DNA of 25,507 nucleotides, taken from IMG/VR virus record IMGVR_UViG_3300024259_000143, positions 1 to 25,507 of that record. One strand, written 5' to 3'. Shown in pieces: positions 1-19,600 of the stretch. The position numbers and the translations under genes are program-made. Position 1 is the first letter of the stretch. Each line of letters starts with the position of its first letter. The notes below the pieces were generated by a model that made no database searches, had not been told where the DNA came from, and saw only the letters and a program-made list of their open reading frames with translations. The stretch comes from a virus.

Positions 1-357
1 TTGATCTACTTTGTATTTCTTAGCCAGTTTAATGACTAAATCTTTTGTAAGTTTTGAATTAGGTAAGTTATCAATAGCTTTTGAAAATTTAGCATCTACG
101 AATTCACCGGGATTTTTCTTCAATACGGATTCTGCATAAAATCCTAATTTTTCATATTTTTTAATTACATCTGGTTTATCTGTAATGACAATGCTTTTTC
201 CAGATGTTTTGTGTTTGACTTTTACTGTCTTACCTTTTTTATATGTAAGTCCTAAATCATCTTCATTTATGGATTCTGCCTGAAATGGTGGTCTATCTTT
301 ATCAGTATAGACTTTGCCTAATTCTAAATCTTTTATTATATCTTTTATCTTAATCAT
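1..357 (-). CDS. Hypothetical head-region protein, C-terminally truncated by window edge
   Basis: The frame opens at ATG 357-355 and stays open to base 1, giving 119 residues without a stop, so the C-terminus lies outside the window. The start overlaps the stop of the upstream gene as ATGA, which suggests translational coupling. The first residues, MIKIKDIIKD, closely resemble the MIKLKDILKE leader of the protein at 1562-1870. Position 10 is Asp here, so the T4-type cleavage Glu is missing, but a SINE-D motif follows near residue 32. Residues about 38-75 form a basic block with a TSGKSIVITDKPDVIKKYEKLG core that looks like a small beta-alpha module. The remainder is rich in Lys and predicted helical. 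I recognise the general type from marine T4-like phage contigs but know no function. A minor capsid-internal or core protein is the likeliest reading. Confidence 0.75.
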   Translation of the reverse strand, partial: MIKIKDIIKDLELGKVYTDKDRPPFQAESINEDDLGLTYKKGKTVKVKHKTSGKSIVITDKPDVIKKYEKLGFYAESVLKKNPGEFVDAKFSKAIDNLPNSKLTKDLVIKLAKKYKVDQ

Positions 358-1427
358 TTCATCAATTTCCAAGCTACATTCGCCATTTGTTTAATAGGCA
401 GTTTTTCAAATTTCTTTCTATTAGCCTGACCAAGAGCATCCCAAACTTTCATAATCACATTAGCAGTTTGCATATCAACCATCACACCATCTATCTTTTT
501 ATATTGCTTTCTCTTTACAATATCTTTTATTTTATCAATGTTGTTACCTTCATTTACGGATTCTTTAAGTGATTTTACAACATCAGTAAAGTTACCCTTA
601 CCACTAAATGCTATTTTCTTATAAGCATCAACCCAAGCTTTGTCGCCATCAACTTCTATATATGCAGTCTTCATTCTACCTGTCTTTCCAACTTCTGACC
701 AAGACCTTACAGTAACTCTTGGATGACCAATTTGACTACCCCATATTCTTAGACTATCTTTATCCCTAGCAGTTATAGATTTATATGTTTGTTTATATGT
801 AGCTTCATACAAAACACCTTCATTTACGGATTCTCCAGCATATTGTCTTTTATAAAAATCTGCATCTGATTTAGATTGTTTCTTTGGTTTCTCATCTTTC
901 TTTTTTGCAAATTTATCTTTAAGTCTTTGAAAAATACTTTTAGCTTTCTTATGAGTAGCAGGATCTTTTTTAGCATAATCAGATTTAGCAGCAGTAGCAG
1001 CTGAAACTTCTTTACCAGCTTTATTTTTTAATTTGACAGCAGCAGCCGCACTAAAAACAGAAGCTGGAATTTCATAAATTAATGATTCCTGCTTTAAACG
1101 ACTCTTCTCAGCTCTTCCTCGATTTTTAGATTGTGATTCAAATCCCACGATTTTTCCTCCCTTGTGTGAAGCATCCTTGCCATCACCATTTCCATAAGTA
1201 CCTTTCTTACGATTATACTTATTTAATTCTGCTCTGTATTTCTTTGACTTTGTAGAAGATTGAAACTTCTTATACTCAGCCTTGTAATCTCTTTCTTCAT
1301 TCATACCTAATTTTTTTCGTAAAGCGCCAATCTTCTTTACAAGTTCTTTTTGTTGAGAAGAACCAGGCATCATTTTCATAGCCCTAGCATACATCTTATA
1401 CAATTCTGCTTTAGTATTTTCATCCAT
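354..1427 (-). CDS. Basic composite protein with three linked modules, probably virion-associated
   Basis: This 357-residue, Lys-rich protein has no assigned function. Residues 1-113 carry a motif of the form LNKYNRKKGTYGNGDGKDASH followed by SKNRGRAEKSR (split here at residues 68-88 and 100-110). It is a conserved block I associate with marine phage proteins, and its Asp-Ser-His and Asn-Arg pattern could suit nucleic-acid binding or a degenerate nuclease, which I cannot prove. Residues 116-195 are an Ala/Lys-rich, low-complexity, histone-like linker. Residues 209-288 form a compact mixed module, and residues 295-357 a C-terminal module with DGVMVDMQTANVI and a final AWKLMK. The modules are separated by ESVNEG (199-204 and 289-294) and by LYE-A (208/209) and LKE-S (289/290), which resemble T4 prohead-protease sites. 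The start is supported by AGGA ten bases upstream. The gene follows the 34-residue protein and is coupled to the next gene by ATGA. A DNA-binding head-core or internal protein is plausible. Confidence 0.8.
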   Translation of the reverse strand: MDENTKAELYKMYARAMKMMPGSSQQKELVKKIGALRKKLGMNEERDYKAEYKKFQSSTKSKKYRAELNKYNRKKGTYGNGDGKDASHKGGKIVGFESQSKNRGRAEKSRLKQESLIYEIPASVFSAAAAVKLKNKAGKEVSAATAAKSDYAKKDPATHKKAKSIFQRLKDKFAKKKDEKPKKQSKSDADFYKRQYAGESVNEGVLYEATYKQTYKSITARDKDSLRIWGSQIGHPRVTVRSWSEVGKTGRMKTAYIEVDGDKAWVDAYKKIAFSGKGNFTDVVKSLKESVNEGNNIDKIKDIVKRKQYKKIDGVMVDMQTANVIMKVWDALGQANRKKFEKLPIKQMANVAWKLMK

Positions 1428-1457
1428 GTGTTCGTCATCCTGACTATGAGTATACCC

Positions 1458-1562
1458 TCATGTCTCACACAGATTATTTTCGTTCTTCTTTTCCCAATCC
1501 TTTGCCATTTCAGGTTCGTTTGCGTGCATCCACTTTCTCTGTTTATCAGATTTAAATGGCAT
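1458..1562 (-). CDS. 34-residue small phage protein (MPFKSxKQRxWMHANxP type)
   Basis: A short frame of 34 codons fills most of the gap between the 102-residue gene and the 357-residue gene. Its ATG (1562-1560) shares one base with the upstream stop, as TAATG. It begins MPFKSDKQRKWMHANEPEM and continues with a KDWEKK segment. This pattern, a basic SxKQRxWMxAxxPxxAxxWE peptide, is a recurrent very small phage protein that I recognise from many phage genomes, usually as a stand-alone ORF or as the C-terminus of a larger protein. Its function is unknown. The good match over the first 25 residues and the exact fit into the gap make chance unlikely. The ribosome-binding site is weak (GAAG just upstream), so translation probably depends on coupling to the upstream gene. 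Confidence 0.7.
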   Translation of the reverse strand: MPFKSDKQRKWMHANEPEMAKDWEKKNENNLCET

Positions 1563-1870
1563 TACTTCAATTTTCTTAATTCTTTATCACATCTGTCAAG
1601 CAATTTATCAATTGGTTTTGTATACTTTTTAATAATAGCATAGGCTTCTTTATTTTCCATAATTTTAGTAGTACCTCTCCATGCTCTTCCATCCGCACTA
1701 ACTGAACTTTCCAAAGCATCTATAGCCATTTCATTATAATCAAATACATCTGTGGATTCGTTTACTTTTCTATTCTTCTTTATATCTGCCAATGTTGGTA
1801 ATGGATCACCAAATTGTCTATTCTCAAATCCTGGAGAACTTTCTTTTAATATATCTTTTAATTTAATCAT
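1562..1870 (-). CDS. Small protein with T4-type capsid-targeting leader (candidate internal head protein)
   Basis: This 102-residue hydrophilic protein begins MIKLKDILKE-SSPG. T4 internal proteins carry a ten-residue capsid-targeting sequence (MKTYQEFIAE) cut by the gp21 protease after Glu10, and T4 gp24 begins MAKINELLRE-S with the same cut. Here Glu10 follows L8-K9, so both the (L/I)-x-E rule and the position match. The mature part would be about 92 residues, charged and mostly helical, ending in a Lys/Leu-rich helix, with no enzyme motif. A VNES motif sits near residues 37-40. The gene lies directly after the prohead protease, where T4 encodes the scaffold gp22, but it is far shorter than gp22. 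The Shine-Dalgarno AGGGGA lies within the last codons of the protease gene, which fixes the start at 1870. Packaging and cleavage are inferred from the leader only. Confidence 0.75.
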   Translation of the reverse strand: MIKLKDILKESSPGFENRQFGDPLPTLADIKKNRKVNESTDVFDYNEMAIDALESSVSADGRAWRGTTKIMENKEAYAIIKKYTKPIDKLLDRCDKELRKLK

Positions 1871-1873
1871 TTG

Positions 1874-2473
1874 CTATCCCCTTAGAATATCATTAATTAT
1901 AGCTTCTACCTTACCATACTTTGTATCACGAACAGCAACATTTTCTACACCCTCATTCATTGGATACATAAAAGCTCCATGCGTAGATGGATTAGATACG
2001 AAATCAAAAGCGATTAATTCAAAATCATCTTGCACTTCTTGTGCGCCACTTTCATTTACAGTTTCAACAGAACCCATACCACGAGAACTAATCCCCAACT
2101 TAATACCACTCTTAAATAATTCTTTTAGAATATTACCAGCCGGCGTTCCTAATACTTCAACCGTTCCTAGCAAATCATCACCATTCCAATTTATTTCTGT
2201 AATGTTATGTGATACATTGGATAAATTAACAACGGATGATTCCGGATGGTCTAACTCGCCCATAGCTCTTTTTTGTCCTATAAAATTTTGAAAATACTTC
2301 TTAGCTTCACGCATCAGTATTTCTTTTGGATATACTCTACCATTTTGATTTTTGGTGTCTGCCCTTTGCAATACACCTTTAACAACGAGCTTTCCGTTGT
2401 TTTCTTTCATAGACTCATTGATTTGGTCTGCTTGTATTTCAAATGGTAAATAATCTACTATTAATTGTTTCAT
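1874..2473 (-). CDS. 21: Prohead core protein protease (T4 gp21-like)
   Basis: This 199-residue protein matches the gp21-type herpesvirus-like-fold serine protease family, which degrades the scaffold core and trims head proteins inside the prohead. The T4 enzyme is about 212 residues long. Visible family signatures are LQRADTKNQNGRVYP (35-49), GELDHP with the likely catalytic His76, the SHNITEI strand (88-94), GISSRG with the likely nucleophile Ser129 or Ser130, and DFVSNPSTHGA (157-167). A QINE-S sequence at residues 17-21 fits the (L/I)-x-E rule and could be a self-processing site, as gp21 is known to process itself. VNES and MNEG motifs occur near 139 and 172. The start overlaps the upstream stop (ATGA), and GGAG lies eight bases upstream. 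Position among the portal, core proteins and leader-bearing proteins supports the call strongly. Confidence 0.93.
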   Translation of the reverse strand: MKQLIVDYLPFEIQADQINESMKENNGKLVVKGVLQRADTKNQNGRVYPKEILMREAKKYFQNFIGQKRAMGELDHPESSVVNLSNVSHNITEINWNGDDLLGTVEVLGTPAGNILKELFKSGIKLGISSRGMGSVETVNESGAQEVQDDFELIAFDFVSNPSTHGAFMYPMNEGVENVAVRDTKYGKVEAIINDILRG

Positions 2474-2658
2474 TTATCTTTCTCCATCATAATTTCGTGT
2501 TTGAGACTTTCCAATTGTTCTATCCATTGATTAAGTCTCCTTAACATATAATTCTTTGTCACATCTTTTTTCTGTATTTCAACCTGCCATCTTTTTAATA
2601 GAGTTGAAATACTAAAAAGAGTGTCCATATAGGATTTCTTTTTATCTTCAAATGCCAT
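2470..2658 (-). CDS. Hypothetical 62-residue head-core-position protein
   Basis: A short, highly charged, helical protein containing a FSISTLLKRWQVEIQKKD stretch and ending in a Lys/Glu-rich helix. I recognise no domain, signal peptide or membrane segment. It sits directly before the prohead protease and overlaps its start by four bases (ATGA). T4 encodes the small prohead core proteins gp67 and gp68 between portal and protease, so a core or assembly role is plausible from position, but sequence similarity to either is not evident to me. The ribosome-binding site is weak (AAGAG). Tight packing between two well-supported genes and the overlap with the protease start make it likely to be expressed. 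Confidence 0.7.
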   Translation of the reverse strand: MAFEDKKKSYMDTLFSISTLLKRWQVEIQKKDVTKNYMLRRLNQWIEQLESLKHEIMMEKDK

Positions 2659-2667
2659 AGCGAGCTC

Positions 2668-3096
2668 TTATTGTAACTGACCAACTTTGTTTGCTAGCTT
2701 AACTAACCTCTCACTTATTTTATTTAAAGCCTTATGTGTATTTTTCCAATATGACTGTGAATTGACATTCAATTCATTTTTTAGTTTAACATTCATTTTG
2801 ACAAGCCCTTCCAAACTATTCAGTCCGTCACGAACTTCTCTCATTGAGCGTCCAATTTTTTGTTTAGGTGTCAATGTCTCATCATTTCTATAATCATGAT
2901 ACTTTCCTTCCTTAACTACATTATATCCTGTAGAATTAGTAGAAATTTCCTTCTTTTTCTTCTTACCTTTGCCAGGACCGCCAGTAAAAGCGTTTGGAGT
3001 ATTGTATCCGGACGTAGCGCCTGAAGTTGTAGCCTCCGCAAGCTCTTTTTTAATCAATTCACGAATAATCTCTTTAAGCTTATCCATTTTAGACAT
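2668..3096 (-). CDS. Conserved small head-region protein with acidic/basic leader and coiled-coil C-terminus
   Basis: This 142-residue protein has three visible parts. Residues 1-21 form an amphipathic charged helix ending LAE-A, a match to the T4 gp21 cut pattern (L19-A20-E21, then Ala22). Residues 22-50 are a Gly/Thr/Lys linker with a TPNAFTGG motif and a poly-Lys run. Residues 70-142 are a conserved helical block with TPKQKIGRSMREVR, then YWKNTHKALNKISERL. I recognise this block as common in marine T4-like phages, where it is annotated as hypothetical. It lies between portal and protease, at the place of T4 gp67/gp68, so a prohead core role is the best guess. Start 3096 is supported by AAGGAG about seven bases upstream, inside the end of the previous gene, with an eight-base overlap. 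Confidence 0.8.
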   Translation of the reverse strand: MSKMDKLKEIIRELIKKELAEATTSGATSGYNTPNAFTGGPGKGKKKKKEISTNSTGYNVVKEGKYHDYRNDETLTPKQKIGRSMREVRDGLNSLEGLVKMNVKLKNELNVNSQSYWKNTHKALNKISERLVKLANKVGQLQ

Positions 3097-3990: not shown

Positions 3991-5808
3991 TTAACTTTTA
4001 TTAGAATTTAAAGAATTGATCTCAGTTTTATATACTTCATTAACCTCATCAGATTCATTTATTAACTCTTTTCCCTTACTACCCATATTTTTCAATAAAT
4101 TTTCATATTTTGAAAGCGAAGCCTTCCCATAAGCTGTATTTTTATCGTGCGCGCCCAATGGATCTCTCCCTCTTGCACCACTATCCTTACCATACTTATC
4201 AGCTTCTTTAGGACGACCAGCGCCATCCCAACCACCTTCAGGTGAACCACCTTCATCATCTAACTCATGACCAGTTCTTCCCATCGATTGATCGGACGGC
4301 GTTCCTTGAGATTGCCCACTTTTAGCAGGATCATTACCCTCATTCTCAATTTGCGCCCGGCGGAATTTATTTTTATAGTCAAATGTAATTTGCTCATCCA
4401 ACTCTTTTATATCAGCGTCTGAAAAATTGTAAATATTTTTATAAATCCATTCCGTTGAAAGAATACCATCTCTTAACATACTTTCCGCCAATGACGTTTT
4501 GTTATTCCACAATTCAACCTTCTCTTGTTCATAGATTGTGGATGGATTTGTAAGTTTTAATTCAAAGTTTACAAGATCTTGGTCTCTAAAACCTTGAGCA
4601 TATAAATGAACTACAGCAATTTTTTGTAATTCACTAACCAGTATTCTCTGTATTCTTTCAATTGTTCTAGCAAATCTAACATCTTCTGCCGCTAAAGTTG
4701 CTTTAGAACCCAAACCTTCTTCATATCCTAAGAAAGCCTTCGGAACGTGAAGTGAAGCCAATAACTTATTCTTCAAATATTCAATATCTTCTATTGCTTC
4801 ATATGTCAAACCTGGAAGAGCATTTATTTCTGTTCCACTATCTCCGCCACGCACTGGTAAAAAGAAATCTTCTGTGAGATTTTGGATGTTATAACGTAGG
4901 TTATAATCTCCAGTATTTTCATCTATAACAGGAGCCTTTTTCATCTTATTTATTACTTGTTGCATGTAGTTATCAACTTCTGCTGGCGGTATATTACCAA
5001 TATCTAATTTGAACACTCTCTTTTCGGGTGCCCTCATAATACGATGTATTAACATAGCATCTTCCATAAGAGTTAATTGCTTCCAAACTTTTCTACCACC
5101 TTCTAAAATAGAACGACCATATGGTACAAAATTAGAATCTGAAAGTAATCTGAAATGTGCTATTTCATAATTTTCCAACATCGTTGTTTCTGCACCCCTC
5201 TGTGTATGTCGTGCGCCAACCACACCACTTGATTGCTGTGGTATAAATTCGAATTGTACTAAATTTGGATTGGATGGATCGTGGCCCTCAAGACGCGTTA
5301 TATCATAAGCCGATATTGGCATTACGTTTGTAATACCATATTTTTCATTTATATCCAGTTTGAGAAAGAAATCACCATATTTTGTCATGTTTCTAACCCA
5401 TGGCCACAAATTAAATTCTATGTTAAGAACATCATAAAATAGATTATGTAATATATCATGCACATTATTATTATCTGTAGTAATTTGTAGTACTTTTCCA
5501 TATTCATTTTTCATAGTTGATTCATCTGAATATACATCTAATGCGGAAGCTACAATAGCATCCGAATCCATTGATTCATAATCCCCAAATAATCCCAATC
5601 TAAGTTGTTGGACTTGCATAAGCTCGTTATATCCATATTTTTGCATATTAGAATATAATTTTGTAAACCTATCCACCAAAGTGTTCTGTGCAATCGCTTG
5701 AACGTGTCCAGTATCAACTATCTTTAACTTTTTGCCACCAATATTTCTAACAATAGTATTAGTTGAAAATAATCGTTTTAATCTTGAAAATATATCTTGT
5801 TGTGCCAT
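3991..5808 (-). CDS. 20: Portal vertex protein (T4 gp20-like)
   Basis: At 605 residues this is somewhat longer than T4 gp20 (about 524). It forms the dodecameric ring through which DNA is packaged and to which the neck attaches. The body shows the order expected of the marine gp20 group: a variable N-terminus, the DIVASALDVYSDE-like helix (seen here as SDAIVASALDVYSDES, near 83-98), FNLWPWVRNMTKYGDFFLKL (133-152), the PYGRSILEGGRKVWKQL segment (about 229-245), EKRVFKLDIGN (about 262-272), the LPGLTYEAIEDIEYLKNKL region (about 334-352), and LGSKATLAAEDVRFARTIERIQ (about 367-388). The last 120 residues are a Gly/Asp/Ser-rich disordered tail, and INE-S at 583-585 matches a gp21-type site. A clear AGAGGT Shine-Dalgarno lies six bases before ATG 5808. 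The terminase stop is only ten bases upstream, so the two are co-translated from one message. Confidence 0.93.
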   Translation of the reverse strand: MAQQDIFSRLKRLFSTNTIVRNIGGKKLKIVDTGHVQAIAQNTLVDRFTKLYSNMQKYGYNELMQVQQLRLGLFGDYESMDSDAIVASALDVYSDESTMKNEYGKVLQITTDNNNVHDILHNLFYDVLNIEFNLWPWVRNMTKYGDFFLKLDINEKYGITNVMPISAYDITRLEGHDPSNPNLVQFEFIPQQSSGVVGARHTQRGAETTMLENYEIAHFRLLSDSNFVPYGRSILEGGRKVWKQLTLMEDAMLIHRIMRAPEKRVFKLDIGNIPPAEVDNYMQQVINKMKKAPVIDENTGDYNLRYNIQNLTEDFFLPVRGGDSGTEINALPGLTYEAIEDIEYLKNKLLASLHVPKAFLGYEEGLGSKATLAAEDVRFARTIERIQRILVSELQKIAVVHLYAQGFRDQDLVNFELKLTNPSTIYEQEKVELWNNKTSLAESMLRDGILSTEWIYKNIYNFSDADIKELDEQITFDYKNKFRRAQIENEGNDPAKSGQSQGTPSDQSMGRTGHELDDEGGSPEGGWDGAGRPKEADKYGKDSGARGRDPLGAHDKNTAYGKASLSKYENLLKNMGSKGKELINESDEVNEVYKTEINSLNSNKS

Positions 5809-7396: not shown

Positions 7397-7794
7397 TACA
7401 TTTTTCCTAAAATAAATCCTATACCTAACCAAAGGTATTGATTTTCATACCATTTTGGTTCAACTAACTTAACTAACTTTTCATTCATTTCATCTCGAGC
7501 TTTTAATAATTTAATCTGTGAATCCTTGACATTTAATAATAAAGAATCAACGTTAGCCGTTTCTTCTAATTTTGTTACTAAATTTTCACAATCACTAATA
7601 ACAACTTTTTGTGATGCAATTAATGAATCGGCCTTTTCTATCTTACCTTCCCATTGAGCATCTCGTTGTTTAATCATCTCCAACGCTTCAGCGTATGTAA
7701 AGGTAGTCGGCTTTTTGCCATCCTTCTTTATATCTTGCGCATCTGTCATTGATAACGCGAAGAAGAATATTATAAAATATTTTAGTATATTCAT
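7396..7794 (-). CDS. Exported coiled-coil protein with C-terminal hydrophobic anchor
   Basis: From ATG 7794 this is a 132-residue protein. That start is preferred over ATG 7806 because GAGG lies six bases before it and overlaps the stop of the upstream gene, and because the protein then opens with a clean signal sequence (MNILKYFIIFFFALSMTDA, then Gln). The middle 80 residues are predicted coiled coil. The C-terminus, from WYENQYLWLGIGFILGKM, is a short hydrophobic segment that could anchor it in the inner membrane. There is no lipobox Cys. I have seen this layout (signal peptide, coiled coil, KPKWYEN-type hydrophobic end) in phages of aquatic hosts, without assigned function. Together with the next membrane protein it could form a spanin-like envelope-disruption pair, but neither shows the defining Rz1 lipoprotein features. 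Confidence 0.75.
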   Translation of the reverse strand: MNILKYFIIFFFALSMTDAQDIKKDGKKPTTFTYAEALEMIKQRDAQWEGKIEKADSLIASQKVVISDCENLVTKLEETANVDSLLLNVKDSQIKLLKARDEMNEKLVKLVEPKWYENQYLWLGIGFILGKM

Positions 7795-7802
7795 AGTAAA
7801 CC

Positions 7803-8114
7803 TCATTTGTTCTTAGCAAATTGTCTTAAAAAATCTTCAGCGGATTCTACTTCATCGTTTTCATACGCCTCTTCCATCTTTTGAGTTTTCTTTTTTGAAG
7901 TGGTAAGTTTTCTTTTTAGTTTACCAACTTCTTTTTTAGAAACAGTTTTCTTTTCTTCCAAAACTTTAATTTCTTTTTCAACTTTCTTCTCTTCTTTTTT
8001 GTTTTCTTTGATAACCTTTTTAAGTTCTTTAACTTCTTTACTTTTAACAGCATTGGCTGCAAAAAGACCACCAAGTAAACCAAAAAATCCGAGTATTAAT
8101 TTCCAAATTTTCAT
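7803..8114 (-). CDS. Small membrane-anchored coiled-coil protein
   Basis: A 103-residue protein with an N-terminal transmembrane segment (about residues 4-22, KLILGFFGLLGGLFAANAV) followed by a long Lys/Glu-rich coiled coil (about 25-85) and an acidic tail with a SAEDFLRQF motif. This is the overall shape of an inner-membrane spanin (Rz-like) or of a membrane-tethered assembly factor. Sequence alone does not distinguish them. Its start overlaps the stop of the zinc-finger gene (ATGA), and its stop region provides the ribosome-binding site of the next gene, so the two membrane proteins are tightly coupled, which suits a partner role. Confidence 0.75.
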   Translation of the reverse strand: MKIWKLILGFFGLLGGLFAANAVKSKEVKELKKVIKENKKEEKKVEKEIKVLEEKKTVSKKEVGKLKRKLTTSKKKTQKMEEAYENDEVESAEDFLRQFAKNK

Positions 8115-8641
8115 TCCATGTTCTCCAATTCGTTTAAAACTTTTGTGTATTTTTCTAAAGCCTCGTCAGCTTCCTTTTGTATCGTACTCATATCAATATT
8201 CCACTTTTCCTTTTCTAATTCGGGATGATTAACGCCGACATTATTATACCACACCGGAGCAGATTGAGCTTTCCATTCTTTAATTTTCTCTATATTCTCT
8301 TTAAGAAAAGATATTTTATTTTGTTTTACCTTTTCCTTTTCCCACTCATCATATTTACCTTCTAATCTAAGCTTATGTTCAAATTGTAGTTGACAATCAA
8401 AGCAATGACCATACAATCCCCACATTTTATCGTCTAATCTCTTCTTCATAATCTTATCACACTTCTTACAAAAATGAGGCATTCTAACATCTTGCATAAT
8501 TTCTGTCATTTTTGGAATGATATCGCCCTTTTCTTTTTCATTACCTTTATAACCGACCATCACTCTTTTTTCTGTTTCACGACCAGCGAGAATATTACCT
8601 AATGCTTGATTTTGTCTTTGTGTTTCTTTACTATACGCCAT
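8111..8641 (-). CDS. Cys4 zinc-finger protein of unknown function
   Basis: This 176-residue protein has four cysteines arranged as C58-x2-C61 and C80-x2-C83 within FCKKCDKIMKK and GHCFDCQ, a typical treble-clef or zinc-ribbon layout able to bind one zinc ion. The rest is charged and helical, with a KYDEWEKEK segment and a long C-terminal helix (about 150-175). I recognise the KMWGLYGHCFDC pattern as a recurrent hypothetical protein near terminase genes in marine T4-like phages. Its neighbourhood, two genes upstream of the large terminase, makes a nucleic-acid-binding or packaging role possible, and it is one candidate for the otherwise missing small terminase, though without direct support. 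GAGGT lies just upstream of ATG 8641 within the stop region of the preceding gene. Confidence 0.82.
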   Translation of the reverse strand: MAYSKETQRQNQALGNILAGRETEKRVMVGYKGNEKEKGDIIPKMTEIMQDVRMPHFCKKCDKIMKKRLDDKMWGLYGHCFDCQLQFEHKLRLEGKYDEWEKEKVKQNKISFLKENIEKIKEWKAQSAPVWYNNVGVNHPELEKEKWNIDMSTIQKEADEALEKYTKVLNELENME

Positions 8642-8643
8642 AA

Positions 8644-11600
8644 TTACCTCGTAAACTTTAACATTCCTAAAATTTGATTAACAGGAGCAAATGCGCCTGT
8701 ATACTTATACAATTTCCCTTTAAACATAAATGTAATACCCTCACTTGGTACAACAGCATCCAATCCTCCAATAGCATTCAACCTATCCAATTGAGTTTTT
8801 AATGTATTTAATACTTTTGGATCTGTAGAATTTTTTACTTTGGATATTACACTTATTAAATCTTTTTTAATTTTTTGCACTGCCGCATCCGGATTCGCAG
8901 CAATAAAATCACTAAGATTTTTTAATATTTCCGCGCCAAGTTCAAAAAATAAAACTTCCCAATCTCTTATATGCTCTTTCTGTAATCTGGCGTGATCATT
9001 TTTATCAGTAGATAAAACCCATTCTAAAAACTTGGGATGATCTTCTTTTAAATCCTTTTTAATCTGTGGAATCTTATATGATTTATCGAAGAAAGCCCAC
9101 CTCTTAGTTAGTTTGACTAAAATATCATTTGTTATATTCATGAAGTCAGTTTGATTAGCACCATTTAATATATATTCCATCCAATATGCTTGATGATAAT
9201 CTGCTAATGTATCAGTACCTCTAAGAGCATAATTATTTTGTAACGCGTTCAACTTGCCCAAAAAATAACTTTGTCGTTGTGAAAAGTTTTTTACTTTTGG
9301 GAGTTTAGCTACAAATGGTCCAGTTACACTAAATGTCTTTTGTACATTTTGATTTATCTGCTTTATCATACCAGCTAATACTCTTGCACTGCTACTATCA
9401 GATCCAATTGGCGAACCAGCCGCATTATACTCTATTGTTCCATGAAATTGTAAAAGTGATTTATCATAAGGAATTACATTTGCTGTTTTCGGATAAATGA
9501 TTTCCAATGACATAAATTTCTTACCTTCTGCGAATATTTTATCTTTTTGTTTATCACTTAATCCACCAATCGCTTTTGATAAATCCACCATTGCACCAAC
9601 AAATGCCTTCTCAAGGTCTCCCCTTCCAGCAAACATACTCTTTACACCACTAATACTTAATGCCGCTGCACCAAAGTTTTTAATATGTCCACCATTTCTA
9701 GCCGCAATAAGTTTACCATTCTTCCAACTTATCATTATATTTTGACCGTCTGTTTTTTCTGTTACAGTCCCATCATTACTAAGATTACCTTGTAGTGTAT
9801 TAATAATTAGTGTTCTGAAATCTGAAAATGTAAGATTATTATTATCAAATGGATGATTTAAATGTCCGTACGCGCCGCCCATAAGCAGTAGCCCCTTTCC
9901 TTTATTTTTTTGTGTTAAAACACTTTTTGAATTTATTTGTTCGTGAAAATTATCCTTATCTTTAACTTCATAACTAAAGCCATCAGCGCCAGCCACCATC
10001 AAATCACCTATAATATTATCAATAGCAGCGTCAGTACCCATCCAATTTACTATTTCCCAGCCTAAAGGTTTTACAACATCCGTCATCCATTTTTTGTATT
10101 CTCCAACCGCTGCAACAGAACCTTTAGCTTGGCCTGCATCTAAATGAGTTACATCCGTTGATACATAATGCTTTTTACCCGGCTTCCTTCTAGAAAATTC
10201 CGATGGTGCATCATCATTATCCATTGGATCTATCGCGTTATTACTTACTATATAATCTATAATTTTCCAACCGGCTCCACTATATAAGTTATCTATCCAA
10301 TTTTTTGATGATTTTTCATAATCTTCAAAGTCTTTATAATAAGTTGAAGGACCATCATCAAGATTACCTCCAGGAGTTCCTGTAGCTTCCAGTAAAAACT
10401 CTTCTATTAACTCGTCCGTTAGCGTATAGGTTTCAAATAACTTTTTAAATTTATTTGTCATCATTTGAAAATTTCCCTTATCAAAATACCCAAATATATT
10501 TTTAAATCTTTTTTGTCTCTCGCTATCATCAATTTTAGGATCACCCAATAATTCTCTAGCTTTAGTACCACTAATATTACCAGATTGTGGAGCAGTTAAA
10601 ATATACCCATGCTCATCAAACCCTTTCATATCCTTCGTATAAGGTTTAAAATATTTACCACCAAGTCTACCAGAATCCTTTCCACCAACCACATAAACAA
10701 CTGCTGTAGTTTCTGGATCATATTTTCTAAGTAAATTTTTTGCAACATATGGTGATGTTTCTTGGATTATTCTATTTCTTGGAATGCCCATCTTTGTCAT
10801 ATGCCTGACTTTTTCTGAAAAATTCATTGGATGTCTAGGTGGTTGTTTTATATTAGATGTCGTTATATAAGCTTCATCTACCCTGCCTTTCAACCAATCA
10901 TATGTAGCAGCGTGGCCAGAATGAAATGGTTGGAATCTTCCGCCGAATACTCCGATTACTTTTTTAATTTGTTTAGCTTCATTCAATTTAGCTATTTGTT
11001 TTTCTATATCCTTTATTTGCAATTTTAACTTATGACTATTGGCTCCACTACCAAATCCTATAGCTTTTTTAATTAGTTTTTGCCTCTCATCTCTAAGTTT
11101 ATTTTGTTTTATTTGGTCTTTTCTACTTAATTTTTCATTTACGTCTTTCAAATTAGATGCACTATCCCCACTTTCTGCAATAGAATATACAACCTTTTGC
11201 ATATACAAGTCAAGGGTTTCTTTTATTTTTATTTTCTTATCTATAATATCTGGCTTTTTAACTTTATCAGTTGTAACAAAAGTATCATATTTATCGTCAG
11301 GAGAATGTTCATATTGTCTAACCTCTAAACTTATCTTTGGCTTATATCCTTCCGGCAGTTTATTAATAATCCCTTTGAAATGTACTTTTCCTGGAATTAA
11401 ATAAAGCATCATATTTAATTTATTTAAATTAACCAATAATTGACTTGATGTCCACAATTGATTTTGACTTCTCACCATATCATATTTTGGACCTAATTTT
11501 TGTGTATGATTGTAAAATTTTGGAAATACTTCTTTATAATTTTTTGTAGATTTAACTAATTCTTGAGCATATTTCATTCTTGTTTCGGAAGATATTCTGT

Positions 11601-13185
11601 CTGGTCCTCTTGTATATCCTTGTTCAGGATGTTTAATTCCATGATTAGTTCTTACGAGTGGCTTTTTTAAGTCATGTACAGTTACATGCGGTTTTACTCT
11701 TGAAGTGTTTTCAATTACAGCAACTTTTTTACCGTCACTAACAATTGTATGACCTTTAATTCCATCGTGAAATGTCACTAATGACCTAACCACATCAGAT
11801 AATTTTTTATAACCCAACGCCTCTCTAATACGAGCACCATCTTTTGACGGGGCTTTTATTTTTTTAGTTTTATCGAATTCTTTTTCATCTCTCTTTACAA
11901 ACAGTGCTGAATTCACAATACCGATTCCATATGAATTCATACCCTCACACCAATCCGTATCCTTATCCATTACATAACATATTTCCGTACCATATCCAGT
12001 AAGTTCTCTCACTACTAATAAATTAGGTGAATAATTTCTATCTCTGTTTTTACCCAGCACTATATCATTACCAAATTTATTAGCAAAAGTAATACATTCA
12101 TCAATTTCTTTATAACCACTTTTCTTATCCGTTTTATTTTTATTAATTCCTTTACGACTTGGAGATGGTAACATTCCAGCCGGCGCTCCAAATTCTTCAT
12201 CAAATGCATTTACTTTTTTAACTAATCTAAACTTTAATGCAGGCCTCCCATTGATAAGCAAATCACCCTTCTCATTCCAATCAATAGATTTAACAACTAC
12301 TTTCTTATTCTTAAATTTACCCATTTTAACGGTATCGCCTATTTCAACAGGAACATCTATACTTTCAAAGAAACGAGATTGACCTGGATCTTTGAATACT
12401 TTGTGAAATTTCTTTTCTTTTGCAAGCCAATCCTTTCCTATTTTACTCGATACGGGCCTACTAAGAAATTTAGTAATACCTTTATTGACTAACATTTTAA
12501 ATCTTTTTTTAGCTTGTTCAGCATCTAAATATCTATTATTATCAACTATTAGAAAATTAGATCCTCCAAATAAACCTTGGAAAAACGCTAAATTATTTTG
12601 GACATCCTGCCAACTTGTACGGACAATCGGTTCAGGTACTACTCTTGTTCGTTGCTCATTTCTTTCTAAAGCGACATCTAAAGAAGTATTTACAAAAACC
12701 ATATAAGTATCATAACCCAATGCTTCTAATTGTTTTTTCTGCGCTTTCACCGATTTGTATTTATGTCCAGTACCATCTATGATTACACCTAATCTACCTT
12801 GTGTATATAATCTTAATCTTTCCTTACTTAGCGATTTAGCAAAATTTCTCAAACCACTTGTAGCATAATCAACAGGATTTCCATTTCTATCCACACCAGT
12901 AAGGTCTTGAAATAGTTCATCTGGCATAACATCTAAATCTGTTGTTTGAAAATACTTTTTCATTAACATTTCAAGTTCAGAATCCTGATTTACCATTTTT
13001 AAACCAGTCCTAGATACATTGACGTTTTCAGGTATGCCGAATAGTTTAGAAGCAACATATGACTTTCCACTTCCAGGTCCACCAGCTAAAAAGATAGCCT
13101 TAAAGATACCTGGATCTCTAGCTCCCTCTGTTAGTATATCTGCCTCTATAAAAGGTTTTGTTAAAAATTCGGTAAGTTTATTCAT
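8644..13185 (-). CDS. 1513-residue multi-enzyme protein: P-loop kinase, beta-barrel, Ntn-hydrolase, NMNAT-like and RNA-ligase-like domains
   Basis: Domains in order. Residues 28-245 are a zeta-toxin/polynucleotide-kinase-like P-loop kinase with Walker A GGPGSGKS (35-42). Residues 275-325 are a small beta-barrel. Residues 364-628 resemble an Ntn-hydrolase of the acyltransferase/C45 group: Cys364 as nucleophile, KNRDR (379-383), GMNSYGIGIVNSAL (415-428) and RTNHG (512-516). Residues 680-736 are coiled-coil linker. Residues 742-916 are an NMNAT/cytidylyltransferase-like fold with GRFQPFHSGH (749-758) and ISGTKAR (871-877). Residues about 960-1513 are an RNA-ligase-like nucleotidyltransferase with EKTDG (Lys1144 nucleophile), SLEII (Glu1228), EGITFMFKG (1482-1490) and KLYKYTG (1491-1497). 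An insertion of about 225 residues lies between its motifs III and IV. (L/I)-x-E plus small residue occurs at 20/21, 363/364, 671/672, 736/737 and 933/934. AGGA precedes ATG 13185. RNA repair and NAD metabolism are plausible roles, unproven. Confidence 0.85.
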   Translation of the reverse strand: MNKLTEFLTKPFIEADILTEGARDPGIFKAIFLAGGPGSGKSYVASKLFGIPENVNVSRTGLKMVNQDSELEMLMKKYFQTTDLDVMPDELFQDLTGVDRNGNPVDYATSGLRNFAKSLSKERLRLYTQGRLGVIIDGTGHKYKSVKAQKKQLEALGYDTYMVFVNTSLDVALERNEQRTRVVPEPIVRTSWQDVQNNLAFFQGLFGGSNFLIVDNNRYLDAEQAKKRFKMLVNKGITKFLSRPVSSKIGKDWLAKEKKFHKVFKDPGQSRFFESIDVPVEIGDTVKMGKFKNKKVVVKSIDWNEKGDLLINGRPALKFRLVKKVNAFDEEFGAPAGMLPSPSRKGINKNKTDKKSGYKEIDECITFANKFGNDIVLGKNRDRNYSPNLLVVRELTGYGTEICYVMDKDTDWCEGMNSYGIGIVNSALFVKRDEKEFDKTKKIKAPSKDGARIREALGYKKLSDVVRSLVTFHDGIKGHTIVSDGKKVAVIENTSRVKPHVTVHDLKKPLVRTNHGIKHPEQGYTRGPDRISSETRMKYAQELVKSTKNYKEVFPKFYNHTQKLGPKYDMVRSQNQLWTSSQLLVNLNKLNMMLYLIPGKVHFKGIINKLPEGYKPKISLEVRQYEHSPDDKYDTFVTTDKVKKPDIIDKKIKIKETLDLYMQKVVYSIAESGDSASNLKDVNEKLSRKDQIKQNKLRDERQKLIKKAIGFGSGANSHKLKLQIKDIEKQIAKLNEAKQIKKVIGVFGGRFQPFHSGHAATYDWLKGRVDEAYITTSNIKQPPRHPMNFSEKVRHMTKMGIPRNRIIQETSPYVAKNLLRKYDPETTAVVYVVGGKDSGRLGGKYFKPYTKDMKGFDEHGYILTAPQSGNISGTKARELLGDPKIDDSERQKRFKNIFGYFDKGNFQMMTNKFKKLFETYTLTDELIEEFLLEATGTPGGNLDDGPSTYYKDFEDYEKSSKNWIDNLYSGAGWKIIDYIVSNNAIDPMDNDDAPSEFSRRKPGKKHYVSTDVTHLDAGQAKGSVAAVGEYKKWMTDVVKPLGWEIVNWMGTDAAIDNIIGDLMVAGADGFSYEVKDKDNFHEQINSKSVLTQKNKGKGLLLMGGAYGHLNHPFDNNNLTFSDFRTLIINTLQGNLSNDGTVTEKTDGQNIMISWKNGKLIAARNGGHIKNFGAAALSISGVKSMFAGRGDLEKAFVGAMVDLSKAIGGLSDKQKDKIFAEGKKFMSLEIIYPKTANVIPYDKSLLQFHGTIEYNAAGSPIGSDSSSARVLAGMIKQINQNVQKTFSVTGPFVAKLPKVKNFSQRQSYFLGKLNALQNNYALRGTDTLADYHQAYWMEYILNGANQTDFMNITNDILVKLTKRWAFFDKSYKIPQIKKDLKEDHPKFLEWVLSTDKNDHARLQKEHIRDWEVLFFELGAEILKNLSDFIAANPDAAVQKIKKDLISVISKVKNSTDPKVLNTLKTQLDRLNAIGGLDAVVPSEGITFMFKGKLYKYTGAFAPVNQILGMLKFTR

Positions 13186-13621: not shown

Positions 13622-16600
13622 CTAAGTATCAAAAGTAACTTCCATAAATGCATTAAAGTCATCACATGTTACAGCAGAAGTAGCCCCCATATATCCACCA
13701 TTGTTAGTTATAGTCACATATAAAGTCAAAACATCACCTGCTGCAAATGTATCTGTACCTATTGCTTGAGTTGCTGAGTCGCCCTTATTACCCGTACTAG
13801 TTGGTGACTCGTCAACATAAAACACATTTGTTCCATTTTTTCGGACTTCAGTTCTCACGAGTGAGTAAGCCTGATCAAAGGGAGTATCGAAACCATCGGT
13901 TTGACTTGTAACATTAAACTGACACGAAACCCCAGTAATACTACCAGCTCTATGCATTCTATATCCTATTGTGGCTCCCATCTGTGTACCATTATTGAAA
14001 TCTAAATACCTACTTGTAGAAAATGTCCCACTTTCACCACCATCGAAATATCCACGTGTACCACCACCAGTCATATGACCGGAAATTGCTAAATCGCCTG
14101 CAGCATTTACTACCAGCAAATCACTCGAGGACAGTCTATCTTGAATTTTTAAAGGATAATGAGCCGTATTTCCGGCCACTCCCGCTTCTATAAGTAATCC
14201 ATGACCACTGGATCCACCATTGTGAATACCTGCGGCATACGCTCCATTTTCGTATATATTTAGATTCAAACCTTCAGCTGTTACAGATATAGCACCATCA
14301 CTACTCATAGTTCCGGCATTAGGACCTATTGTTAAACCTGGACTACTTTGAGCAGTGGTATTTCCTATTGAAACGCCTCCTTCAAAATATGAATTTCCAT
14401 CTGCAACATAAAGTCCATAACCAGAATCCGCATCGACGTAAATTCCGTAAGTTGAATCTGATGTTTCTGCTTTGACATATATCCCATATAACGCATTTGG
14501 ACTAACAGAACTATATCGTGTTGCTGCAAAATATCCTGCATATCCTATACCAGTTGTTCCTACGCCATTTACTTCACTATATATACCATAACCGACTGCA
14601 TTAGTCCTCTCATTGAATCCTACATATCTACTATAGATATTATAAAAAGTTTCAGATATCCCACCACCACTCGATTCCCTGGTTGATTGAATAAACATAT
14701 TATAGCTAACTTGATTATTTGCTCTCATATTAAAGTAATGGCCGTAGCTGTATGCTTCGACAGAACTTTCCCTCCAAGCAGTGCTTGAAAGTACAGGTCC
14801 AATTTGGTCTACTGCTTTAGCTGTATCACGTATAATAACCATACCATCAGAAATATCTACCCCTAATCCGTATCCAGAATATCCTGACGGATCTGAAAAT
14901 CCAGATCCTATGGTTAATTTGACATCATTGTTAGAATCAAAATATTGGAAATTATTATCTGTGCCGGATATTCTAACTCTTTCTCCAGTTGCCGCTGTGG
15001 AAATAATAGCTCCACTACTTCCTGTAAGTTGGTTATTAGCAAGTGTAAATCCACCGATAGCACCAGCAGTTGCAGTAACCGTTCCTTCCATCGATACATT
15101 ACCACTCGAATCAATGTTAAAATTAGATGAACTAATTTCAAGAGAGCCAGAATTACCGGATGTGCTGGTAGTAAATAATTTTATAAAAGTATTTTTAACA
15201 CCAGCTCTAAAGAATAAAGCTTCATCTGGTTGACCGACAGATGACATAAGCCATGCACTTCCTGAAAAAGTTGTTGGGTTTATAGACATCCCCTGACCAA
15301 CTCCAGAATTAGTACCATAAAGTATTCCCGAACCATCATTACCGTCATATTGAATTCTAGCTGAATGACCAGATTCTAATGTAAATGCAGTTGTTTTACT
15401 CGCGCCCGCTCCAATAGTTCCACGTATTTGATTTCCTTCAATATCAAATCCACCTATATCACCTTGAGTTATTTGTGCCGCAGAAGCAGTTATTTGTCCA
15501 GTGAGTCCTTTTAAAGTAAGTGTTCCAGCACCCGCAGTTAAATCACTTCCGATAGTAAATCCACCGATTTCACCTGCAGTAGCAGTAACCGTTCCTTGCA
15601 TTGTAACATTACCAGCATTAGTAAGATGAAAATTACTTGAACTTATTTCTATGTTGCCATTACTTCCACTAACAAATTGTCCACCGCCACCTAAGAAAAA
15701 GTTGGATGAACTTATATACATTAAGTTTTCGGCTGATGAGAATTTTAGATGTGCACCATCTGCTTTACCTATTTGATATTTTACAGCATTATTCTCATTT
15801 AGGAAATACATACCGGATGTTGTGGTTGTATCAGTTATATTTGTATTATAAGTTCCACCGTCAGTATTCCAGAGGAAAGAATTTGTACCATCTGCTTTTT
15901 GTACTGAAATAATTCTCATTCCACCTGTTACGCCAACCACACCAGGGGCTGATGCTGCTCCTATTGTGATTACGGCACCCACCTCAGGTGCACCAACTTT
16001 AGCAAGTACTTGGAAACCAGCACCAAGCGAACCACTCATACCAGTTAGTGCGATTACAGGTAAAGGGTTGGCACCATATTTTGTACGAAGCAAAACTGAA
16101 CTTGTCAGATATGAATTAGAGCCACCAGAGGTATCATATCCAATATAATCAGAAGTAAGTGCTTCATCTGTAATAGTAAATCCACCTATTGTACCACCAG
16201 TAGCAGTAATTGAGCCACTCATTTTCATCGTGTTATTAACAGTATCTAAATGAAAAGCACTTGAACTTATTTCTATGTTTCCATTACTACCACTTATGTA
16301 TTGAGCACCACCGCCTAAATAAAATGTTGAAGCCGACATGATAAGATTTGAACCATCAAATGATATTCTTTCTCCCGAACCACTACCAAATAAAAATGTG
16401 CCTGTTCCATCTACATAAAAACCATCACCACTATTATAAGCAGTTGGAGCAATTCCTGCACCTATTTTTATTTGACCACCACTTGAATCCGAATCTAATA
16501 TAAAAGTAGTACCTGATTTTATTTCATCAGCATCTATAGTCCAACCACCTATGGTTGCACTTCCATCTATTGTTAAAGAACCACCTGTATATCTGAATCC

Positions 16601-19600
16601 TGTTCCCATGGACATTCTACCATCACCAGTTGATCCATCAATATAAATTCTGTCTGCGGAATTATATGCGTCAGTTCCAGTGCCTAAAGATAATATACCA
16701 GCAGCTTTTAATTTTGCATTAGTTCCAGTTATTTCATCTGAATTAATTGTCCAACCAGCTATTACGTTTTGATTTTCTGATAATTCAAATAATAATGTAC
16801 CAGCCGAATTAAATCCCTCTATTCCATAATCGCCAGAATTAAGTCTACCCAGAGCGACTCTGGTATTATCTCTATTGGAGGGGCCGTAGTTGGCTTTACC
16901 AGCCGTGTCATGAACTGTAATCAACTTATTACTCGCGTCTATGATGATTCCTTGAGTATCGGCCGATGTTGAACTTGATATTAAATTATTACCAATTTCC
17001 CAACCACCAACACTCAAAACTCCACCAGTATATGTGAAATCTTCACCGATAGACATTCTATTACCCGGACCATCTAAGTATGTTCTATTAGCTTGAGCGT
17101 AATTATGTGTTCCACTTCCTAATGAAAGAACACCACTACCGCTTAATATTGCTTGTCCATTTGAAGATGAAATTTGTCCCTTACCAATCTTCCAGCCACC
17201 AGCAGTTAATACATCACTAACATAACTAAAATTTTCCCCAACAAAAAAGATTGGGTCTGCTGATGCACTTACGAAAAATAAACTTGCAGATGGACTCATT
17301 CCAGTATGAGTTGTCGCGTTTGTTCCCAGTGCTATCTTAGCCTGGTTGCCGTCTATTGTTGCGACTGTTCCACTTGTCAATTGACCTGGTCCCAATTCCC
17401 ATCCAGCCAATCTTGCTTTATTTGCAGTAATCAATACCGAAGCACTGGCTTCACTTCCTGAAACCGTTCCACTTCCACTAAAAACTGCGAATCCATAAGG
17501 ACTATCTACCGTACCATCATGTAGTGGTAATTTACCCAATACAAGTTTAGGTTGAGCTTCATCCATACTACCCGTCCAAATAGTAAGTGATTGTGAAATT
17601 GAACTTAATCTTACACTACCATCTACATTATCACTCTGTATATTACCAGGTATTAAATCCCATCCAGCTAATTTTGCTTTATCTTCTGTAATTAATACTG
17701 AATACCTATCCTCATGCAAAATGCTGGCATTATCAGTACCACTAAATACAGCGAAGCCATATCTATCATCGTCAGATGAACCACCAACTCTTGGTAGTTT
17801 CCCCATTACGACTTTTGGTTTTGCAGTATTTATAGAACCAGTATGAATTGATATTTGTTGGTTTGTTGCGTCAAGTGCTATTGAACCATCAGAAGAATCA
17901 TATTGTAATTTTCCTGGTACTATATCCCAACCAGCTAATTGATGGTTTCCATCTAATCTTAATCTAATGACTTCAGCACCGGCGGTATTATATCCAAATA
18001 ATCCTGAAGTGCTAGCTGTTCCAGTATTTGTTAATTTTAATGCTGAATTAGCCGTACCAGTTATATTACCAATCATAATAGTACTATTAACTAATGCTAA
18101 TGCGTTGTCAGATTTTACTGCAATATTTCCTTTTAAGTATATGTTACTTGAATAAAGACCATGACCTACTAATGGAGATCCACTAAAATCAGTATCAGTT
18201 ATTCCGGCAAGATTTCCCAAACGAGCTTCTACTGTTCCATCATCAATAACATCAACGAATGGGGAGTTAGCAGAACTAGCATCTATCAATACAGAACCAC
18301 CGGATGTTCTAACACACGTCATACCAATTTGTAAATCAGTAGAAGCACCTACCGAGTATGTTACGTTATAAGTATGGAATGCAGTTTCACCCGACCCACC
18401 TGTTGCACTCAATGAATCTATTGTAAAGATAACTGACGTAATCGTACCATCAGTAGAGTCAGCTTCCTTACACCACATAGTAACTGGAAATGAACTAAAA
18501 ACTGCTGATTTATCATCTCTTATTTTAAGTGTAGTTGTAGATGGTATAGATGATATAACGGCCGAATCCGAAACATATAAATAACCATTTGTGGCCTTAA
18601 CTACATCTTTTTGGAATATATGAGTTCGTAATGTATTTCTAACAACTATGTTATCAATTTCCATTGTTGTACCACTGGATCCACCATCGTCAATTCTAAA
18701 TCCATCACCCCCCACAAGTGCTGATACAAATGTGGATGTTCCAAAAGTACCTGTGTCTCCAATAGTTAATGCAGAACCATCAAAGGTAAGAGTAGATTCG
18801 GCAGTTAAGGCGCCATCCCCATTTCCTGTTAAAATATAATCCGTACCAACTGTAGATAATCCTGTTCCGCCATCTGCTACTAATAAATCTGTAATTCCTG
18901 TAATTGTTCCGCTATCTATATCAACATTAGTCATATTTTGACTATCAAAGTTTATTGCTCCGGCCGCTTGGAATGCTCCAATTTTAGTAACTGTTAAAGT
19001 GTCGGTAGCAAAGGTAAAATCAGAATCGTCTGTAAGTTGTCCATTTGTTGTAGAGAAAGGAACTCTTCCACTTGTTAAATCATCTGCAATAAGTGTGTTA
19101 GCTCGAAAGTCATAAGCCCCTATATCAATATTTGCTGTTGCAGTTATTCCTGCGGTTGTTAATGCAGAAATTGTTGTTGCTGCGATTGTACCGCCTTCAA
19201 CTTTATCACCACTTATTTGATTAGCTGCTAATGTTAAAGTTCCAGCACTTACATTTAATGTTTTTCCAGAACCTACCGTAATATTTGAAGTTGCTATTGT
19301 TGCCCCGTCTATATTACCACCATCTATATCTGGCGTATTAATATCAGGACTTGTTAAAGTTTTGTTTGTAAGTGTATCTTCTGAACTAATAGTTACTAAA
19401 TTAACTTCAGCACTTTTCAATCCACCTTTCCACCTATCTACAGCCACATCCCAAAGTAATGAACCAGTCTGAGCAGTTGCGGCATCATTTACATATATTC
19501 CACCATCTCCGGCAGACGAGCCCCCGTTCAATGTTAAAATTTGATCTCCAAGAACAACCTCATTAGTAGTAGTTGTAGTCATTGTTCCAGCTACACTTAA

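Follow-up and report, generated by a model that had tools for sequence, protein, structure and literature searches.

Why do the head genes of an uncultivated virus repeat the same few short motifs? The window analysed here, IMG/VR record IMGVR_UViG_3300024259_000143, positions 1-25,507, spans all of a 25.5-kb virus record that is probably a fragment of a genome, and it holds a cluster of head genes around a prohead protease (Table 1). An original prediction had assigned to proteins of this cluster T4-like capsid-targeting leaders and repeated (I/V)-N-E motifs, and had supposed that the specificity of the protease can be read from its own genome. All of the motifs that it quoted exist in the window, each on the minus strand: MIKLKDILKE-S opens the 102-residue protein with Glu-10 in the T4 register, a charged helix of the 142-residue protein ends LAE-A, and SINED (partial gene), ESVNEG (twice in the 357-residue protein), VNES (102-residue protein) and QINES, VNES and MNEG (protease) are all found. 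The leader of the partial gene, MIKIKDIIKD, is also present, but its position 10 is Asp, so that its match to a cuttable T4 leader is inexact; the LINES of the portal is real but lies at about 4051-4065, beyond the interval 1-3096 given for it. The pattern (I/V/M)NE(S/G/D) occurs 8 times in 1,868 head-cluster residues, versus a shuffle mean of 0.28 (maximum 3 in 2,000 shuffles), and 0 times in the remaining 6,538 window residues; its clustering in head genes is not due to chance. What a mere list of sites overlooked is that ESVNE behaves as a linker of modules, conserved down to its DNA, and that modules switch between being leader-borne and being linker-joined.

The linker stands out among the relatives of this phage, 80 IMG/VR loci whose protease is 75-100% identical to that of the window. 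The relatives share ancestry, so that counts across them are not independent events, and their gene starts are predicted. One protein was taken per family (112 families, 34,470 residues). Apart from glycine repeats and KESVN, which overlaps the linker, no 5-mer in this set exceeds its expected count as strongly as ESVNE, with 34 copies in 16 families and 0.12 expected; together with MIKLK, the start of the leader, which is found in 12 families versus 0.09 expected, it makes up the two strongest 5-mers. Permuted controls of ESVNE occur 0-3 times versus 62 for ESVNE itself, and VNE occurs 127 times versus 7 for its permutation NVE. Within the fetched loci, ESVNE is confined to about -2 to +5 kb of the protease, ESVNE and leader genes together peak 0-4 kb downstream of it, and no copy is found in >120,000 residues farther upstream. 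On most long contigs (96-216 kb), the ESVNE codons form one small patch on a single strand.

Proteins of 300-800 residues in the relatives are strings of modules with ESVNE between them, and the residue that follows ESVNE is unrestricted. Local alignments between these mosaic proteins place 20% and 17% of their ends at most 8 residues from a linker versus 9% by chance, and ends at the single best linker position reach about 12 times the null. When the set is split in silico at linkers and leaders, 619 segments belonging to 163 families result, and a few of these families are pieces of the protease split at its own motifs; the linker-delimited segments have a median of 79 residues, and 46 of the 75 families that recur are found beside two or more different neighbours. 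Among the mosaics is the 357-residue protein of the window. Its AlphaFold2 (AF2) model is of low confidence except at the ends; the C-terminal module, after residue 292, is predicted to fold alone (predicted local distance difference test, pLDDT, about 86-93), with the preceding stretch below 50. No Pfam match was obtained for this protein, and Foldseek gave no match at E <0.001 with a model that is too poor for such a search. Pfam and PHROGs supplied nearly no functional annotation for the modules, and the mosaic proteins of relatives gave Pfam matches below the cut-off only. In annotated phage genomes, the phrog_6437-type module was the only one from the 357-residue protein to be found; it occurs in T7-like cyanophages and in a fosmid. 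Phage C48C1 has one module of a relative. The phrog_6437 module spans residues 46-109 of the 357-residue protein; in one of the T7-like cyanophages that carry it, P-SSP7, a gene overlapping the module is annotated as an HNH endonuclease. No prior account of such polyproteins was found in the literature searched, although one in a subscription journal is possible.

The leader, M-I-K-L-K-x-(L/I)-(L/I/M/V)-x-E, starts 93 distinct proteins of the relatives, some with two or three extra residues before it. Hydrophobic residues occupy positions 4, 7 and 8 (L4, (L/I)7, (L/I/M/V)8), and Glu-10 is present in 86 of the 93. The residue after Glu-10 is free, and the continuations differ widely; many leader proteins have RKFGEPLPTLxD in common after Glu-10 and diverge beyond it, a pattern that can be likened to T4 Ip1-3, which share only their leader (PMC12373910). 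In T4 IPIII, residues 4 and 7 serve targeting and residues 8 and 10 processing, and Asp-10 allows targeting but blocks cutting (PMC9026906). The Asp-10 leader of the window's partial gene would be expected to enter the head and stay uncut. Comparison of the sequences shows that the leader positions agree with these determinants, and the leader, with about ten shared residues in the 4/7/8/10 register, is by this measure of the T4 capsid-targeting type, which lends strong support to what had been proposed from the window. These features suggest that the leader sends proteins into the prohead and is removed there. A second patch of leader genes is found on the contigs of some relatives. In one of these (L206), the second cluster lies about 30 kb away from the head genes and includes a NUDIX-domain protein (7563-8348) with the leader-type start MIKLKDVLLLE; the same protein gives a zincin (MPTase-PolyVal) match below the cut-off. 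On the minus strand of a 131-kb contig (L210, reverse-complement positions 9361-11553), four tandem leader genes are followed by an ASCH-like gene, and one leader protein of this contig resembles an HD hydrolase by eye.

The same modules follow either the leader Glu-10 or the linker Glu, as in VIKLKELLNE-RMDKRQ versus DVNESVNE-RMDKRQ, which are 98% identical (here and below, a hyphen after Glu marks the junction). Six module families are found behind both leader and linker, the modules known in both formats include ATYKQ from the 357-residue protein of the window, and the DDLGLTYK module of the partial gene is also found behind x-x-Glu junctions in other relatives. Modules also enter the 142-residue core-type protein, where relatives have one or more of them inserted exactly between the Glu and Gly codons of a single site. 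The inserts measured are 195-495 nt long, with lengths always divisible by 3, and a (V/I)NE of its own closes each of them. At the insertion site of this family, the residue before the junction (P1) is Glu in 55 of 55 distinct contexts, P3 is Val in 45, Ile in 7 and Leu in 3, and P2 is varied. The AF2 model, which is of low confidence, has a helix at residues 3-22, a low-confidence region at 20-65 and a helical hairpin at 77-141, and the insertion site may lie in the disordered part that separates leader helix and hairpin.

What would cut at such junctions? The window protease is a clear homologue of gp21-type S77 proteases; it matches the T4 gp21 structure 5JBL at a sequence E of 3e-16, and its His and Ser align with two Ala of that structure (LNAPP, GVASRG), which we take to be catalytic-to-Ala mutations. 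In relatives, residues 62-68 of gp23 hold the propeptide end LI(D/K)E-(A/S), and two relatives have Val at P3 (VSE-A and VKE-A, in phage immuto and contig G008); aliphatic-x-Glu also fits the protease termini, the portal tail and the leader helix of the 142-residue protein, and it is the main feature common to the varied contexts in which modules start. T4 gp21 cuts after L/I-x-Glu (PMC9026906), and these findings suggest a cutting rule that is the T4 rule widened to Val. The expectation that the specificity could be read from the genome is supported as well: aliphatic-x-Glu recurs at the candidate sites of junctions, protease termini, portal tail and gp23 propeptide, and Val is readily tolerated in it. 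The internal VNES of the protease, which had been counted among the motifs, was rejected as a cutting site: it aligns within the S77 fold of 5JBL, is not kept in a distant relative, and is probably part of the fold.

The 1513-residue fused protein seems to follow the same junction rule. Its kinase starts after ILTE-G, and homologous kinases start after MIPFILKE-G in Pelagibacter phage HTVC008M and after MKTFAELQE-G in phage Melnitz. Two relatives (L209 and L029) have the kinase and GDTV modules in reversed order, and some relatives carry them as separate leader-like genes. In the cultured relatives immuto and Mel-JY01, candidate cut sites are ESVNE/ESLNE, MADNFNLRSFLTE, MKKSQLRQIIKE and the IVSE of gp23. 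The immuto head region has only a few linker-like sites, three of them within one 841-residue protein. This protein (L084, 6007-8532) carries ESVNEG and ESLNED.

The linker is also conserved at the level of DNA. Over 60 distinct junctions, conservation covers the 15 nt GAATCCGTAAATGAA, drops sharply at both edges and mostly extends to synonymous positions; the linker Ser codon is TCC in 62% of cases, a codon that accounts for 9% of the remaining Ser of these proteins. When IMG/VR was scanned with nothing but this 15-mer, at least 80 loci were obtained; among the loci listed, 71 of 80 have ES(V/I/M)NE in frame, and most of them lie beside the portal/protease cluster. Variant codons preserve the ESVNE protein sequence. 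These results suggest that the linker has been propagated as a DNA unit, and the 15 bp may be used in recombination.

We propose, as a rather likely explanation, that these genes encode internal-protein cargo in interchangeable leader and linker formats, some of it in the form of polyproteins cut by the gp21-like protease. In this model, the first format is a small gene whose first ten residues, MIKLKxLLxE, would be a capsid-targeting leader cut after Glu-10, and the second is a mosaic polyprotein, or an insertion in the 142-residue core-type protein, whose modules are joined by ESVNE or other aliphatic-x-Glu. The neighbouring protease would be taken into the prohead, trim itself close to its two termini and free the modules by cutting after aliphatic-x-Glu; the freed modules would remain inside the head and reach the host together with the DNA, or be partly cleared as core peptides. 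The ESVNE linker, handed on as a 15-bp DNA unit, would provide incoming modules with a ready in-frame joint that doubles as a cutting site. Leader, linker, shuffled modules, in-frame insertion, conservation of the DNA and the place beside the protease are seen in the sequences, whereas cutting, packaging, injection and any role against host defences are inferred from them. However, it should be said that several points weigh against this proposal. No virion proteomics for this phage group or its cultured relatives was found in the literature; few of the modules have a known function, and none is known to act against host defences; and the counts come from relatives of common ancestry. In addition, ESVNE could be a binding peptide or a flexible joint, its E and S being more conserved than cutting needs, a module type, GFGGEL, shows a loose P3, the structure models of the 357- and 142-residue proteins are of low confidence, and the codon bias of the linker could come from recent common descent with no role at the DNA level.

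One alternative takes ESVNE as an uncut linker, or as a short motif that binds core or scaffold, so that the mosaic proteins stay whole as core proteins. Cutting is a prediction, and both the free residue after ESVNE and the conservation of E-S ahead of V-N-E beyond what cutting alone requires would suit such a role; yet junctions without ESVNE share mainly aliphatic-x-Glu, in keeping with what gp21 is known to cut, one and the same module can stand behind either the cut residue of the leader or the linker Glu, and the end of the gp23 propeptide obeys the same rule, all of which makes this alternative unlikely. It is doubtful, though still worth serious attention, that the modules are cut as proposed but resemble the core peptides T4 gp22, gp67 and gp68, being cut up and expelled from the head rather than delivered to the host. 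T4 core proteins are indeed cut at many sites and mostly leave the head (PMC9026906), and the 142-residue insertion host sits where T4 has its core genes. Nevertheless, relatives have a separate acidic scaffold-like gene directly before gp23, the modules are extremely variable, and some leader-borne proteins carry enzyme domains (NUDIX), unlike scaffold.

The 15-bp repeat could also be mainly a DNA element, either a recombination joint or a mobile linker, with its protein meaning secondary. Its sharp 15-nt conservation, its favoured synonymous positions, its otherwise rare Ser codon and the identity of both window copies all fit this idea, which nevertheless seems quite improbable given that the repeat is in frame inside the head cluster in most loci, that variant codons keep the ESVNE protein sequence and that junctions of other sequence keep aliphatic-x-Glu. 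That the pattern reflects nothing more than paralogy and composition, i.e., a Lys/Glu-rich family expanded by duplication with chance VNE motifs, is very hard to credit: the proteins are Lys/Glu-rich and the phages are related, but the segment families found across linkers include many that are unrelated, the recurrent ones often change neighbours, and the permuted-composition controls are near zero. An extension of the cargo proposal would give the DNA and protein roles to one and the same element. In such a cassette system, the 15-bp unit would be the joint through which modules are gained and lost and would also encode a site for the head protease, so that a module arriving in frame would automatically be packaged, set free as a protein of its own and injected; we put this forward tentatively, as a possibility that falls short of being probable.

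The arrangement can be compared with known systems. Like T4 IPI, IPII, IPIII and Alt (PMC9026906, PMC12373910), the proteins described here have a ten-residue N-terminal leader, with the same register and Glu-10, on unrelated and variable small proteins, and a gp21-type protease would be expected to cut it. Unlike in T4, the leader is MIKLKxLLxE, several leader genes stand in tandem beside the protease, and many cargoes are joined by linkers in mosaics or inserted in a core-type protein rather than leader-borne. As in T4, the gp21 homologue adjoins the portal and the gp23 and leader sites fit L/I-x-Glu, but here the predicted sites often have Val at P3, as gp23 does in two relatives. A further likeness is to the polyvalent proteins of phages and conjugative elements, multi-domain mosaics that are predicted to be packaged and delivered; they are enzyme fusions, some with their own peptidase (PMC5512222), whereas here the modules are small, without known function and joined by a uniform linker that fits a separate head protease. 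Recognisable effector or peptidase domains in one polypeptide were not detected by Pfam in the 357-residue protein or in the mosaics of relatives. In the giant phages phiKZ and SPN3US, head proteins are also cut after Glu by a gp21-related protease, several of them at multiple sites, but the parts removed are long propeptides, not interchangeable modules with a repeated linker.

T4 injects a small set of internal proteins, which inhibit the defences of its host (PMC12373910). The present group appears to hold a much larger and rapidly reshuffled set (163 segment families from a modest sample), which the leader and the 15-bp linker make easy to list. If the proposal is correct, the proteins that uncultivated marine phages inject could be recognised by sequence, nature would offer a design for delivering several proteins at once, and the specificity of a head protease could be read from genomes; it would also raise the question of how a joint that functions as both DNA and protein evolved.

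Table 1. Features of the window, in order of position (P1 and P3, first and third residues before the predicted cut)
Feature	Position	Strand	Remarks
Partial gene, 118 residues	1..354	-	Cut by record end
ESINE linker of partial gene	262-276	-	Before module DDLGLTYK; DNA one base off GAATCCGTAAATGAA
Leader MIKIKDIIKD of partial gene	325-354	-	Asp-10
357-residue mosaic protein	354..1427	-	Modules: phrog_6437, NPAA-like, ATYKQ, KRKQ C-terminal
Second ESVNE linker of 357-residue protein	549..563	-	DNA GAATCCGTAAATGAA, identical 15-mer
First ESVNE linker of 357-residue protein	819..833	-	DNA GAATCCGTAAATGAA
102-residue leader protein	1562..1870	-	Second shared stretch RxFGDPLPTLxD
VNES of 102-residue protein	1754-1765	-	
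Leader MIKLKDILKE of 102-residue protein	1841-1870	-	
gp21-like prohead protease (Peptidase_S77)	1874..2473	-	Pfam PF03420 E 7e-29; PHROG 207
MNEG of protease	1949-1960	-	Candidate C-terminal self-cutting site; Glu 65/65; P3 Met/Val/Thr/Ile
INES of protease	2411-2422	-	Candidate N-terminal self-cutting site; Glu 65/65; P3 Ile/Val 65/65 in relatives
142-residue core-type protein	2668..3096	-	
Module insertion site VKE-G of 142-residue protein	2905-2916	-	
End LAE-A of leader helix of 142-residue protein	3031-3042	-	
gp20-like portal	3991..5808	-	Pfam PF07230 E 9e-75
INE-S of portal	4051-4062	-	Candidate C-terminal site; Glu 71/71; P3 Ile/Leu in relatives
1513-residue fused protein	8644..13185	-	Zeta/AAA-type kinase, GDTV module, cytidylyltransferase-like domain, ligase-like region (by eye)

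The main genes of the window all lie on the minus strand; their order, read from the high-coordinate end, is a giant fibre-like protein, the 1513-residue fused enzyme, TerL, the portal, a 283-residue protein, the 142-residue protein, a 62-residue protein, the prohead protease, the 102-residue protein, the 357-residue protein and the partial gene. Pfam and PHROGs identified the T4-like portal, TerL and the S77 protease and left most neighbouring genes unnamed. Among cultured phages, Microcystis phage Mel-JY01 and Flavobacterium phage immuto have the nearest portals (51% identity), with that of the Far-T4 reference RM378 more distant (31% identity to the window portal); because of this order, the window phage, an uncultivated T4-like marine phage, is probably of the Far-T4 type.

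Two further observations concern neighbouring genes. In many relatives, a small gene resembling ribosomal protein bS21 lies between the leader genes and the scaffold gene (L014 12428-12655 and its equivalents), and one bS21-like gene is annotated as RpsU in Mel-JY01. At the far end of the window, positions 13622-25507 of the minus strand encode the fibre-like protein, which is open-ended at 3,961 residues and contains near-identical internal repeats (GKIGGFELDSTTLSATSNNLILSSSGQITGSTVLFTG).

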